DNA from: an uncultured Clostridiaceae bacterium
Lineage (GTDB): Bacteria > Bacillota > Clostridia > TANB77 > CAG-508
Direction of reading: 5' to 3'
DNA length: 53,446 bases
NCBI GenBank assembly: GCA_949927585.1
Contig: CATLFA010000008.1
Location: 1-53,446 of the forward strand
Shown here one piece after another: positions 39,477-50,041 of the stretch (position 1 is the first letter of the stretch; each line of letters opens with the position of its first letter). The position numbers were made by a program, and so were the translations under genes. The notes below the pieces were generated by a model that had not been told where the DNA came from, searched no databases, and saw only the letters and a program-made list of their open reading frames with translations.

Positions 39477-41238
39477 CTATTCTTCTATTAATTTAATATG
39501 AACGTCTCTTAATTGTTCCCCTGTTACCCTACTTGGTGCTCCCATTAGTACATCTCTTGCTTTTTTATTTTTTGGAAATGCTATTATTTCTCTTAGGTTA
39601 TCTTCGTTTGTCATTAGCATTATCATTCTATCTACTCCTGGTGCTGCACCTGCGTGTGGTGGTGTTCCATATTGGAATGCATTGTATAAAGCTCCAAACC
39701 TTGTTTCTACTTCTTTTTCGCTGTAGCCTGCTATTTCGAATGCTTTTACCATTAGTTCTGGGTTGTGGTTTCTTACTGCTCCTGATGCCATTTCGTAGCC
39801 ATTACATACTACGTCATATTGGTACGCTAATATATCTAATGGGTTCATTTCTTTTAGTGCTTCCATTCCTCCTTGTGGCATTGAGAATGGGTTATGGTTA
39901 AAGTCTATTTTGTCTTCTTCTTCATTATATTCATACATTGGAAAATCTACTATAAAGCAGAAACGATATGCATCTTTTTCTATTAAGTCTAGGCGTTTTC
40001 CTAGTTCTATACGTACTAAACCTGCTATTTTTTGTGCTGTTTTAAATTCATCTGCTATAAAGAATAGGCTATCTCCTGTTTTTGCTCCTAATTTATTTTC
40101 TAACTCTTGTTTTACTTCTTCTGTTACAAATTTAGCAATTCCACCTGCTGGTCCTTCTTCAGTTAGTTTTACCCATGCTAGACCTTTTGCTCCTGCTTCA
40201 TTTACTGCAAATTCTGTCATATTATCAAAGAATTTTCTTCCTTGCTTCTCTCCATTTTCAACTACTATAGCTTTTATTGTTTTATCTTTAAATGCATTAA
40301 ATTCTGTTTTTTCAAAAATACTTGTAGCATCTTGTATTATAAGCGGATTTCTTAAGTCTGGTTTATCTATTCCGTATTTTTCCATTGCTTCTTTATATGG
40401 AATTCTTAAAAATGGTGCTTCATCTACTTTCCAAGTTGTAAAGTGTTTAAATGCGCTTGTAAATATTTCTTCTAATACTGCTAAAACTTCTTCTTGAGTG
40501 CTAAATGCCATTTCAAAGTCTAATTGGTAGAATTCCCCTGGTGCTCTATCTGCACGTGGGTCTTCATCTCTAAAACATGGTGCTAGTTGGAAATATTTAT
40601 TAAAACCAGATACCATTAGTAATTGTTTAAATTGTTGCGGTGCTTGTGGTAAGGCATAAAATTCTCCTGCGTGTAACCTACTTGGTACTAAAAAATCTCT
40701 TGCTCCTTCTGGTGATGAGTTAGCAAGTATTGGTGTTTGAATTTCTGGAAATCCCATTTCGTCCATTTTGTCTCTTAAAAATTTTAGAACTTTTGAACGA
40801 AGTAAAATGTTTTTATGTATTTTATCATTTCTTAAATCTAAAAATCTGTATTGTAACCTTAAGTCTTCTTTTACTTGTGAAATATCTGCTTTTTCTGAGT
40901 TTACTTCAAATGGAAGTATATTTTTACATTTTCCAAGCATTTCTATTTTGTTTGCTTTTATTTCTATTTCACCTGTTGGAATTTTTAAGTTTTTATTTGA
41001 ACGTTCTAAAACATTTCCTTCCACAGATATTACACATTCTGTTACTAATTCATCAGCATTTACTTCTGATTCTTCATTTATAACTATTTGAGTAATACCG
41101 TGCTTCATCTCTTAAATCTATAAATTTCATAGCTCCTAGGTTTCTTATTCTTTGAATCCAACCTGCTAGTTTTACTTCTTCCCCTACGTTTTTAATTGTT
41201 AATTCTCCACATGTGTGATTTCTGTATTTATTATTCAT
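39477..41238 (-). CDS. aspS: Aspartyl-tRNA synthetase (+1 site)
   Basis: Class II synthetase of about 586 residues, essential. The start [20 protein letters not shown] follows GGGGGAG by 6 nt and encodes the OB-fold anticodon domain ([21 protein letters not shown]). The frame breaks at zero-frame CGG 41100; skipping C gives [14 protein letters not shown], the family sequence. The rest shows motif 2 ([11 protein letters not shown]), the bacterial insertion domain and motif 3 (GVDRMIMLM). Without a shift the enzyme would lack its catalytic domain, so the gene must be recoded, broken or mis-sequenced. Confidence 0.94.
41098..41100 (-). other. Candidate CGG +1 recoding site (aspS)
   Basis: Zero-frame codon 47: GCA-(C)-GGT-ATT-ACT, restoring AGITQIV in an essential synthetase. 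Confidence 0.85.
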
Positions 41239-43847: not shown

Positions 43848-43883
43848 AAAAAAAAGAGAAGCGCCCCGCGGATAACGCCTCCC
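43848..43883 (-). terminator. Terminator of large structured RNA
   Basis: GGGAGGCG / CGCTTCTC-type stem followed by eight T on the minus strand, at the 3' end of the GC-rich RNA region. Confidence 0.8.
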
Positions 43884-44700
43884 TTTTCGCCACACCCTCT
43901 GGCGGAATTCCCGAGTGGCAACGGCTGCTATCTATATGCGCCGTTACACATTGCCTCAGGAATATACATTTGCCGCACCTCTGGTGGCATTCCCGAGTGG
44001 CAACGGCTGCTATCTATATGCGCCGTTACACATTGCCTCGAGAATATACATTTGCCGCACCTCTTGCGGCTTACCTACCCCCAGCTGCGCTTCCCGCTGC
44101 AAGACAGGCTAGGTATTGATTCGATTGCTCATCGGCAACCACCTAGTGCCCCTGGCCGCACCACTGGCGGCCAGCTTCAGGCATACTAGGATTTTTCCGC
44201 CGCATCGCGGCGCTTTACTAAGTCCCGTCACATCGTGGTGACCTATCAAATTGAGCCTTAGTCCATTTAATTACCGTGGTATGGAAGATGTATAGGCTCT
44301 CACATTTCACATCTTCTTGCACTTTTAATATAAAAGTACACCACTCCAGCTAGGCAAAACCACTGGGAAACAGCCGATTTTTTCTTTTCATAGCTTCATT
44401 TTCCCTCCTGTTGGTTAGACCGCACCCGCAGTCTCAATCGCATCCCACCCTTTGGTGGCTCCGGTTTTCGGGACTTTTACCCGCCCGATAGGTCCATGCG
44501 GCCCCACGCTTCACATTTAGTGACTGGGCCGCCGCAGCGCCGATTTCTTTTTCCTCTTAGCACAATTCTTGTTAGTCGGTCCTCTGATCATGCTCTTGCG
44601 CCTCCTACGCTAAATACGATATCAACGGTCAGATTTCGCCATACTCAACACTAATGTATGTTGAGGGCAGTTGCATATACAGTGTTCCTTGAACACTTAC
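43850..44700 (-). ncRNA. Large GC-rich structured RNA, about 850 nt
   Basis: An island of about 50 % GC in an otherwise very AT-rich genome, with no conserved protein frame. It has a consensus promoter at 44707-44735 and a terminator at 43848-43883, both on the minus strand. At least ten local stems are visible, for example 44644-44665, 44443-44458, 44418-44433, 44285-44315, 44321-44343, 44227-44242, 44197-44213 and 44153-44173 (TGGCCGCACCACTGGCGGCC). Size and build recall the giant ornate RNAs (GOLLD, ROOL, OLE), but I cannot match one by eye. I see no tmRNA, RNase P, group I or group II intron signature. Confidence 0.85.
43896..44059 (-). repeat. 82-nt tandem duplication inside the structured RNA
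   Basis: Two copies in a row (43896-43977 and 43978-44059), differing at a few bases (GGCGG/GGTGG, TCAGG/TCGAG), with a partial third beginning at 44060. Each copy holds a stem formed by ACGGC and GCCGT around TGCTATCTATATGC. Confidence 0.9.
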
Positions 44701-44706
44701 AATCTT

Positions 44707-44735
44707 ATTTTAGCATACTTATTTACATAAGTCAA
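44707..44735 (-). promoter_or_regulatory. Promoter of large structured RNA
   Basis: Minus-strand TTGACT (44735-44730), 17-bp spacer, TAAAAT (44712-44707), giving a start near 44700. Confidence 0.85.
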
Positions 44736-44892
44736 TACTTTTTTTGAAAAATTTTCTATTTTTTACATTTTTTTATTATATATTTAGAAAAGAGTATTTA
44801 ATTAACAAGATTGATGGTTCAATATGCACACTGTTAATAACCTCCCCCTACAATTAAAACCAATTTTTCATATACTAGAATAAAAGTGGCTT

Positions 44893-44944
44893 GGCTACGC
44901 AGGCGGACACAAGGCCACGCCCCTACATTCTTAAATCGATTTTT
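44893..44944. repeat. Dispersed repeat family 2, copy 1
   Basis: A 52-bp unit with ACGCAGGC, CACAAG, CTACATT and AATCGATTTTT in the same order as the copy at 45269-45320; about three quarters of positions agree. Confidence 0.65.
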
Positions 44945-44956
44945 CCTATTCAATAA

Positions 44957-44990
44957 GAAAGCGGTATAATCAAATAGATTATACCGCTTT
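44957..44990 (-). terminator. Terminator overlapping small gene 3' end
   Basis: AAAGCGGTATAATC / GATTATACCGCTTT with a 5-nt loop; the stop codon of the 53-residue gene lies in the stem. Confidence 0.8.
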
Positions 44991-45140
44991 TCCTTTTTCC
45001 TTTCTTACTATAATTGCTGGACAGCCTTCATATAGTATTTCTAATGTTGCTTTTGTGTTACTTTTCAGATAATTAATAACTTCTTGACTTTCTGAATAAA
45101 TCATTACATAGTCGTCATCTTTGTTCATTATTTTTATCAT
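44979..45140 (-). CDS. Small hypothetical protein, 53 aa
   Basis: MIKIMNKDDDYVMIYSESQE, then helix EVINYLKSNTKATLEILYEG and an end IIVRKEKGKAV. GGGGGA lies 8 nt before the ATG at 45140. Compact alpha/beta pattern, no membrane segment, no family recognised. Its stop is embedded in a terminator stem, which supports a real transcript. Confidence 0.55.
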   Translation of the reverse strand: MIKIMNKDDDYVMIYSESQEVINYLKSNTKATLEILYEGCPAIIVRKEKGKAV

Positions 45141-45268: not shown

Positions 45269-45320
45269 TCTCCACGCAGGCAGGCACAAGTCTACGCTCC
45301 TACATTTGAAATCGATTTTT
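45269..45320. repeat. Dispersed repeat family 2, copy 2
   Basis: Same unit and orientation as 44893-44944, beginning TCTCCACGCAGGCAGGCACA; it ends at AATCGATTTTT. It lies upstream of the trmH-like stop. Confidence 0.65.
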
Positions 45321-45356
45321 CTTATACTATAAAAATAGCTTGGTAAATTGCTGACA

Positions 45357-46545: not shown

Positions 46546-49500
46546 TTATTTATCTAACTTTTCATCTACAAAATTCGACATTAAATATTCTTTAATATCT
46601 CCTAAGATTTGTTTATCTGAAGTTTTATTTATTTTTAATGTAGCATATCCTGGTGAGAATTTTAATGTATTTGCGTATTTGTGTGCAAGTTTAGTTACAG
46701 CTTCTGTATTAAACTTTTGACTATCATATACAAATACAATTCCAGCTTGCTTTTCTGAAATCTTGGTTATTCCTACTTTTCGTGCTAAATTCTTTATTCT
46801 TGCTACTTCTATTAAATTTTCTACTTCTCTTGGAATAGTCCCAAATCTATCTATTATTTCATCTATAACATTTTGTATGTCTTCTTCTGTTCTACATAGT
46901 GCTATATTTTGGTATATTTCTATTTTCTGGGCTGAGCTTTCTATAAATTCATCTGGTATATAACTTGAAACTGCTATATCTATTTGTATATCTTCTTCCT
47001 CTACTATTTCTATACCCTGCATTTCTTTTACTACTTCGTCTAAAAGCTTACAGTATGTGTCATATCCTACTTGTTCCATGTGTCCTGCTTGCATTTCTCC
47101 GTAACATGCTTCCTGCTCCTCTTATTTCTAAGTCTCTCATTGCTATTTTAAAGCCTGATCCAAACTCTGTAAATTCTTTTATTGCTTTTAAACGTTTATC
47201 TGCTACTTCTGATAATAGTTTGTCTCTTTTATAGGTAACATATGCATATGCTTGTTTATCACTTCTGCCTACTCTACCTCTTATTTGATATAATTGTGCT
47301 AATCCCAATCTATCTGCATTTTCCACTATTATTGTGTTCGCATTTGGAATATCTATTCCAGATTCTAGAATTGTTGTACATACTAGTACATTTGAGTCTC
47401 CATTTATGAAGTCTAACATTATTTCTTCTAGTTCTTTTCCACTCATCTTTCCATGAGCAAAAGAAGTTTTTGCTTCTGGTACTAAATTTTGAAGCTTAAT
47501 CGCCTTTGCTTCTATTCCTTCTACATTATTATATAGGTAAAATACTTGCCCATTTCTTTCTAATTCCTTTGTTATTGCTTCTTTTATTATTTCTTCATCA
47601 TATTCAATAACATAAGTTTGAACTGGTCTTCTATTTTGTGGTGGTTCATATATAACGCTCATATCACGTACGCCTACAATTGACATATGAAGTGTTCTTG
47701 GTATTGGTGTTGCTGTCATTGTTAAAACATCTATAGAATTTTTGTATTGTTTTATTTTTTCTTTATCTTTAACTCCAAAACGTTGCTCTTCATCTATTAT
47801 TAGAAGTCCTAAGTCTTTAAATTCTACGTCTTTACTTAGTAATCTATGTGTTCCTATTACTACATCTACCTCTCCTAGTTTTAGTTTTCTTATTACTTCT
47901 TCTTGCTCCTTTTTTGTTCTAAATCTGTTTAGAAGTTCAACTTTTATTGCAAAGTTTTCCATTCTAGCTTTAAAACTTTCATATTGTTGATTTGCCAAAA
48001 CTGTTGTTGGTACTAAGTATGCAACTTGTTTTTGGTCTATGACAGCTTTAAATGCTGCACGTATTGCTACTTCTGTTTTTCCATACCCTACATCTCCACA
48101 TAGAAGCCTATCCATTGGCTTAGATGCTTCCATATCTTTTTTTGTTTCTTCTATACAACGAAGTTGGTCTTCTGTTTCTGCATAAGGGAAACTATCTTCA
48201 AATTCTTTTTGCCATGGTGTGTCTTTTGAGAATGCAAAGCCTTTTACTTTTTGCCTTTTTGCGTATAGCTCTATTAGTTCTTTTGCTATTTCTTGTAAAT
48301 TTTTCTTTACTCTAGCTTTAGTGTTTTCCCATTCTTTACTTCCTAATTTATTAATTTTAGGAATCGCTTCTCCTTCTCCTATGTATTTTCTTATACTATC
48401 TAAGTCATTTGTTGGAATGTATAACATGTCATCATTTTTGTATCTTATTTTTATATAATCTTTTGTTATACCTTCTGTTTTTATTGTATTTACACCAATA
48501 AATTGACCTATACCATGTGCTTTGTGAACTACATAGTCTCCTACTTTTAAGTCTGAAAATACTACTTTTTCGCCTTGTTTAAAAACTTTACTTGGTTTTC
48601 TTTTTTTCTTATTATTTGAAACAAATAACTCTTCTCCTGAAATTATAATTAGTTTTTGGTCATAGCTTTCAAATCCTCCTGATAGTCTACCTTGCATTAC
48701 TAATACTAAGTTTTTCTTTTGTTTACTTATATCTTCTTTTTTTACTATTTGCATACTTGTAGTTAAAACTTTATTTGCTATATCTTGCTGTGTAAGTAAT
48801 GCACCAAATTTATTTGTTTCTTCTTCATTTCCTGCTAAAACTATTATTTTTTTATCATTTATATTTTTCTTTATATCATCAAATAATAGTTCTATTTCAC
48901 TTTTATAATAGTTTACATCTCTATAATCAAATGTAAATTTTATAGGACTTGTTTTAGATAAAGCAATATCTTGTTTTTCTAAATATAGAATTTGACCTTC
49001 TTCTAAATTGTAATCATATATGCTAATATTGTGTATAGCTTGAGGAACAAACCTTCCTTTTTCCATTAAAGACTTAATTAAGTTATTATTTTCAATTATT
49101 ATATTTTCCTTCCTTTGTTTTATTTTTGAGTATTCGTCAAAAATAATTAGGAATTCATCTTTTAAATAATCTAAAAGTGTATTTTGTAAGTAGTAAAAGT
49201 TATTAAAGTATTTATCTATTTTGCTTAAGTAATCTCCTGACTTTATTAATTCTGCATCTTCATTTTTTATTTGTTCTACTTTATTTTGATATTCTTTATC
49301 TTTAAAATTATCTTCATTTTCTAATATTCTTTTTTGTATTTCTTCTAATGATGCTTCTAATAATAATTCATGTGCTGGGTAAATGTTTGCTTCTTCTAGC
49401 ATAAGTTCTGAACGCTGAGAAGATATATTAAATTCACGTATTGAATCTACATCATCTCCCCAAAATTCAATTCTTATACCTTTCTTTTCGTGAGTAGCTA

Positions 49501-50041
49501 TATCAACAATTCCACCTCTTATACTAAACTGTGACTTTGTTTCTACCAAATCGTTTCTTTCATATCCTAATGAAATTAGCTTTTCCTTTATAGTTTCTAA
49601 ATTACAAGTATCTCCAACTTTTAATCTAATTATGTTTTTATATAGTTCTTTTTTACTAATCATTTTTTGCATAAGAGCTTCTACTGTCGTTACTATAATT
49701 TTTACTTTTCCTTGCTGTAATTTATTAAGTACATTTATTCTTTCATATGGTAGATCCTTACTTTCTGCAATAAAATCATAAGGAACAATTTCTCTTTTTG
49801 GGAAATAATGAATATCACTTTCAAAAAACGATAAATTTTTGATTATATTTTTAGCCTGTATTTCATTATAAGTTACTATACATATAGGCTTTTTTGTACT
49901 TTCATAAGTTCCTGCAATAAACTGCATTTTTCCAACGTCAGATAAGCCCGATATTGTAATCGGACTATTTTTTTCTTCTATTTTCTTTATATATTCTTGA
50001 AACTTTGAAAGCTTTATAAGTTCTTCTATAATAATGTTCAT
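46546..50041 (-). CDS. mfd: Transcription-repair coupling factor (+1 site)
   Basis: Translocase of about 1164 residues that removes stalled RNA polymerase and recruits UvrA. In order: UvrB-like N-terminal part (PITISGLSDVGKMQFIAGTY), the CarD-like RNA polymerase interaction domain (VGDYVVHKAHGIGQFIG), the helicase domain (RLLCGDVGYGKTEVAIRAAF, IIDEEQRFG for DEEQ, TMTATPIPRT) and a C-terminal TRCF domain. The frame breaks after RGAGSML at zero-frame CGG 47101; skipping C gives MLGEMQAGHMEQVGY, the family's conserved wording. Codon contents and length are otherwise normal. AGGAG lies before the ATG. Confidence 0.95.
47099..47101 (-). other. Candidate CGG +1 recoding site (mfd)
   Basis: Zero-frame codon 981: TTA-(C)-GGA-GAA-ATG. 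It restores the invariant GAG(N/S)xLGxxQxGH motif; without a shift the C-terminal 180 residues are lost. Confidence 0.9.

Follow-up and report, generated by a model that had tools for sequence, protein, structure and literature searches.

A free-standing RNA gene of uncultured Clostridia with two conserved micro-ORFs that carry candidate ribosome-arrest motifs

The window, that is, the whole stretch of 53,446 nucleotides from an uncultured Clostridiaceae bacterium that was analysed, carries on its minus strand a self-contained RNA gene (44735-43848) with a predicted transcript of about 860 nt. It is flanked by asnS, a SpoU-type methylase gene and a membrane-protein gene (43745-43155) of unknown family, which gives sub-threshold Pfam matches only. 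The initial annotation had placed here a structured RNA of about 850 nt, lying in a GC-rich island with its own promoter and terminator on the minus strand, and all of this was confirmed, size and coordinates being correct to within a few tens of bases. In the composition scan the GC fraction reaches 0.51 at 44001-44500, against about 0.27 in the surroundings, and for the 860-nt RNA a folding energy of -317 kcal/mol (z -4.84) was obtained, better than in 20 of 20 dinucleotide shuffles. The promoter, TTGACT-17-TAAAAT (44735-44707, minus strand), is made up of a -35 element (44735-44730), a spacer of 17 nt and a -10 element, TAAAAT (44712-44707), with a TG ahead of it. The -35 element belongs to a promoter box, TTGACTTATGTAAA (44735-44722), in which the spacer bases are likewise conserved and which is identical or changed at one position in unlinked relatives. 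An imperfect 14-bp palindrome, TTNACNTANGTNAA, occupies the same positions (44722-44735), is kept in unlinked copies and is possibly the operator of a Crp/Fnr-type regulator. When a regulon sharing this box was looked for in the same genome, the exact box was found only at the RNA gene, and the two sites with one mismatch are without such an RNA. The gene closes with a strong intrinsic terminator (43888-43851; 43888-43848 as an element with T8 tail).

Two micro-ORFs lie inside the transcript. The claim that the island holds no conserved frame does not stand, since both are led by a Shine-Dalgarno sequence and show peptide-level conservation among relatives. ORF-A (44591-44517, minus strand) follows the Shine-Dalgarno sequence AGGAGGCG (44606-44599) and encodes the 24 amino acids MIRGPTNKNCAKRKKKSALRRPSH, beginning MIRGPT, with its RGPT motif at 44585-44574. 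ORF-B (44391-44350, minus strand), behind the Shine-Dalgarno sequence AGGAGGGA (44409-44402), encodes the 13 amino acids MKRKNRLFPSGFA, ending in FPSGFA directly before a TAG stop that is followed by C. A single peptide made from both frames by splicing or bypass was also weighed but is rejected, as ORF-A and ORF-B each have their own Shine-Dalgarno sequence and ATG.

Around the micro-ORFs several small structures, all on the minus strand, could be defined. Near the 5' end a first hairpin, AGTGTTC-aag-GAACACT (44697-44681), precedes a second one with approximate ends at 44669-44637, in which TGCC..GGCG closes CTCAACA..TGTTGAG; the second covaries, with 94.4% pairs and 15 two-sided cells against 4.7 in shuffles (0/500). 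A pseudoknot domain common to three types of relative (44344-44252) is located 3' of ORF-B. Its helix P1, GTGGT/ACCAC (44344-44340 with 44280-44276), begins about 5 nt 3' of the ORF-B stop in the window and is invariant, hence without covariation support. The P2 hairpin (44340-44318) covaries (82 pairs against 65.5 +- 3.2 shuffled, 0/5000), P3 pairs AAGATG with CATCTT (44315-44310 with 44290-44285), and P4, the pseudoknot helix GAGCC/GGCTC (44299-44295 with 44257-44253; GAGNC/GNCUC in general form), covaries as well, with 74 against 71.3 shuffled (19/5000); the figures used are those of P2 and P4, P3 being left out. In some relatives the ORF-B stop is found inside the P2 loop. Judged from footprint size, a ribosome on the ORF-B stop and a closed pseudoknot would be mutually exclusive; the pseudoknot is missing from several types and so cannot be the general output of these RNAs. 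Type-2 RNAs of L007 and L012 show variable-number hairpin repeats, CGCGCAGATGGCGCG-AAATGTGAA, between ORF-A and ORF-B.

A DNA search of 95 relatives gave matches in 12, nearly all of the same genus. Identity to the nearest, L002, is 88% over 736 nt, and the other relatives match in islands only; a micro-ORF with a Shine-Dalgarno sequence of its own lies in each island. Conservation is limited to the 5' part of about 450 nt, and the 3' part of about 400 nt is different in every relative beyond the nearest; the variable GC-rich 3' region (44251-43896) includes an 82-nt tandem duplication (43896-43977 and 43978-44059) that is present as a single copy in L002. The covariance model R1, built from homologues of the 5' part as the initial annotation had advised, found members in 14 of 27 genomes of the genus and also in three other genera of the family, some of its weakest matches being non-members. 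One of the weak matches, L035, has an unrelated 48-aa ORF and was rejected; L136, an f4 match, has one isolated ORF. When the pseudoknot core was searched in 84,980 species genomes, 14 contigs came up, all from metagenome-assembled genomes of uncultured Clostridia and nearly all with both ORFs (ORF-B alone was recovered in L047 and L049). Searching with an ORF-B pattern brought in members from many of the family's genera (35 matches against about 16 in the control), and a strict class-wide version over 391 genomes gave only noise outside the order (19 matches against about 20). In another family of the same order, L143 reads MLKCMRFPVGFI-stop, MKTLIFNSGFT-stop and a third, MKKKKRLTSGFT-stop (read by eye). 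Altogether there are dozens of members, spread over one order of uncultured Clostridia, and nothing similar was found in phage, plasmid and viral collections.

Relatives carry one ORF-A and one to four ORF-Bs, that is, up to five micro-ORFs in a row, with four tandem ORF-Bs in L106 and L123, and the whole unit is duplicated in L056 and L077. The genome of the window has a second such RNA (G000:C26:4141-4177), with MRGSP.., MARDRP.. and MIRTSGFV-stop. A single micro-ORF in L112 (about 1585-1640), MKIRGPFFGYFRYPTGFT-stop, contains both motifs.

Among relatives the ORF-A motif is R-[AG]-P or R-[AG]-x-P (RGPT, RAPT, RAGP, RASP, RGSP, RGNP), as seen in the starts MIRGPT, MTRGPT, MIRAPT, MVRGPG, MTRGPN, MVRGKP and MTARGNP and in MKRAGP, MHKRAGP, MRQTRASP, MTNISRASP, MRGSP, MRGHP and MKIIRAAP. 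The ORFs are 7-42 aa long with the motif at residues 2-13, only about 1-8 non-conserved residues precede it, and its codons vary synonymously (Arg AGA/CGA/CGG; Pro CCG/CCC/CCT). The tails beyond the motif, 1 to about 36 aa long, are unrelated to one another, as they should be if it is the motif that acts. A few relatives have a first ORF without the motif (e.g. the first unit of L077, L113 and L118).

ORF-B is 7-26 aa long and in 58 distinct copies has the C-terminal consensus R-[FY]-[TP]-S-G-F-[VT]-stop. Before the stop, F or Y is found at -6 in 42/58, followed by T or P in 40/58, S in 52/58, G, F, and V or T in 45/58; UAG serves as stop in 49/58, and a pyrimidine (C or T) occupies the +4 position in 54/58. 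All of these counts depend on the search pattern [STV]GFx, which fixes G and F by construction but leaves UAG, the +4 base and the upstream F/Y, T/P and R free. UAG closes 44 of 53 ORFs with the B motif but 10 of 39 long frames of the window (p 3.5e-8), and UAG followed by C is a poor termination context in E. coli. Across the motifs Gly is written GGA, GGT or GGC. The Ser codons are AGY in 27 copies and TCN in 21; switches between AGY and TCN need two-base changes and therefore speak for selection on the ORF-B peptide. Some types end in the variants FPVGFVPLEWFH-stop, FPVGFAPGKWFT-stop, VPGKWFS-stop and YPSWFD-stop.

The motifs were tested against a control made of the same sequences reversed. 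The fetched loci contain 381 distinct micro-ORFs led by a Shine-Dalgarno sequence, 37 with the A motif, R[AG](x)P, and 53 with the B motif, a C-terminal SGFx-stop, against 0 and 0 in 460 control micro-ORFs; many loci were fetched for their match, and the contrast is therefore one of non-randomness and not of frequency. An unbiased test was provided by the region divergent from gap (GAPDH), taken by protein search in 25 members of the genus. About half of these regions have such an RNA and the remainder are without it, so its presence is patchy. Although the loci were not selected by motif, ORFs with R[AG](x)P are present in the RNAs and ORFs ending in [ST]GFx-stop in most of them, some highly diverged, for example MVRGPGSN.. 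followed by MRYTTGFV-stop, MWHTSGFV-stop and MVLKNNFHSGFT-stop. That these RNAs constitute a gene class whose micro-ORFs are selected at the peptide level is well supported and leaves little doubt.

RAGP, RASP, RGSP, RAPT, RGPT, RGPS and RGPG are RAPP-like motifs of SecM/ApcA-type arrest peptides (Fujiwara et al. 2024, PMC10987492), and most ORF-A variants are among them. Bacterial proteomes are reported to avoid RAPP-like motifs, which by themselves usually do not suffice and need an adjacent N-terminal region (Fujiwara et al. 2025, PMC12992588); work cited by Morici et al. 2024 (PMC10951233) has the minimal RxPP as sufficient. ORF-A shares with SecM, ApcA, ApdA and ApdP the motif set that includes RAGP, RASP, RGSP, RAPT and RGPT, but those are small proteins, secreted or located in the membrane, that have the motif close to the C-terminus and a regulated gene downstream. 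In ORF-A the motif is near the N-terminus, the supporting N-terminal region is absent, the ORFs are too short for a signal or transmembrane sequence, and in most cases there is no regulated gene downstream, neighbours lying in any orientation. Arrest in ORF-A would hence be unusually early, given the few residues ahead of the motif. ORF-B has its conserved residues directly before a preferred stop, as do TnaC, SpeFL and the NSP-stop, NAP-stop and DGMK-stop uORFs (PMC10987492), but its S-G-F-[VT] motif is different, is repeated up to four times per RNA and in most copies, with their own terminators and convergent neighbours, is not linked to a cis-regulated gene. Descriptions of S-G-F-[VT]-UAG as an arrest sequence, or of stand-alone arrest RNAs, were not found in the literature searched. 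SR1-like dual-function sRNAs are likewise free-standing RNAs with a small ORF led by a Shine-Dalgarno sequence; here there are several micro-ORFs with arrest-like motifs and no known base-pairing target.

The surroundings of the copies bear on where the output lies. Most copies have their own terminator, and the neighbours, whose names apart from the Pfam-checked flanks of the window were read from translations, are convergent (addA, rubrerythrin, tRNA), divergent (gap) or co-directional, and promoter-like sequences belong to the co-directional ones (rpsA, a glycosyltransferase-like gene). From the terminators and the random orientation of the neighbours it follows that most copies have no cis-regulated gene, and for the same reason an output in trans is suggested.

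Taken as a whole, the locus is best read as a free-standing transcript of about 860 nt with two micro-ORFs, predicted to arrest ribosomes and to act in trans, to which we assign a probability of roughly 0.55. Arrest at both motifs appears likely. On ORF-A the ribosome would stall at R-[AG]-(x)-P a few codons past initiation, through the block at the peptidyl-transferase centre that is known from SecM/RAPP-type arrest. On ORF-B the terminating ribosome would be arrested at S-G-F-[VT]-UAG-pyrimidine, a step suggested by conserved residues, stop codon and next base sitting where they are needed. The ribosome held there would cover the P1 strand of the pseudoknot, ribosome occupancy would set the fold and lifetime of the RNA, and in trans the RNA would most likely hold ribosomes or report the translation state. 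A categorically new class of free-standing RNA, with one early R[AG]xP and one to four S-G-F-[VT]-UAG arrests, that traps ribosomes or senses translation and acts in trans, is put forward more tentatively, at slightly less than even odds.

The micro-ORFs might instead encode leaderless signalling or antimicrobial peptides (...RYTSGFV, ...RLFPSGFA), the RNA being a polycistronic mRNA. Leaderless 8-aa signals exist (streptococcal SIP), and the conserved C-terminal 6-7 residues with diversified tandem copies resemble pheromone families; nevertheless, this seems unlikely, since what ORF-A conserves is an internal motif with a random tail behind it, a pattern in keeping with arrest but not with a released peptide, since a peptide product gives no evident reason for selection on stop identity and next base, and since no receptor or exporter consistently adjoins the copies.

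Somewhat less probable still is a cis attenuator, in which the terminator is conditional and ribosome arrest lets transcription reach a downstream gene such as the membrane-protein gene. Arrest leader peptides are normally cis-acting, and a glycosyltransferase-like gene follows the second copy in the same genome. The membrane-protein gene follows the RNA in 5 of 6 type-1 relatives, so that control in cis is conceivable in type 1. However, L003 is without the downstream gene, convergent genes follow in type 2, L039/L040, L041 and others, downstream genes come with their own promoter-like sequences (e.g. 43839-43811), and the tandem whole-unit duplications would make little sense.

The resemblance to GOLLD, ROOL or OLE RNAs first proposed extends to size, free-standing arrangement and heavy folding. 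The recommended cmscan against Rfam (all 4227 families, at gathering thresholds and at E<=10) gave chance matches only, the GOLLD, ROOL and OLE models were not matched, and no Rfam match was obtained in nine relatives. The present RNA is chromosomal, without link to phages or tRNA islands, and its conserved part consists of short coding frames and small structures instead of a large noncoding architecture. It is not a GOLLD/ROOL/OLE-type RNA; what holds of the earlier proposal is a new class with promoter and terminator. A large ornate noncoding RNA with accidental micro-ORFs would account for the strong folding, the covarying hairpins and the length, but is very improbable in view of the motif-free control, the Ser codon-family switches, the Shine-Dalgarno sequence kept at every ORF and the unconserved ornate 3' half.

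Known arrest peptides are single upstream ORFs regulating the next gene. By contrast, the RNA described here seemingly exists just to carry arrest ORFs, in arrays. If the arrest and trans-output reading is correct, it would offer a new stop-codon arrest motif for structural solution, a naturally occurring collection of R[AG]xP arrests in which the nascent chain is still very short, and a trans-acting RNA of a new kind, linked to translation. Even without arrest, it represents a new micropeptide family, too small for the usual limits of gene callers and absent from Rfam.

Some further features of the window were recorded. A 53-aa ORF (44979-45140) upstream of the RNA has a similar ORF in L004 and no Pfam match. 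A dispersed repeat, AAATCGATTTTTC.. plus a GC-rich stretch, occurs at 44857-44883, 44933-44959 and 45309-45335 and also near the glycosyltransferase-like gene in L125, and looks of REP or MITE type. The Mfd-like gene (46546-50041) is divided between two overlapping frames (46546-47094 and 47060-50041). The aspartyl-tRNA synthetase gene (39477-41238) likewise appears divided between two overlapping frames (41074-41238 and 39477-41108), by frameshift or assembly error.
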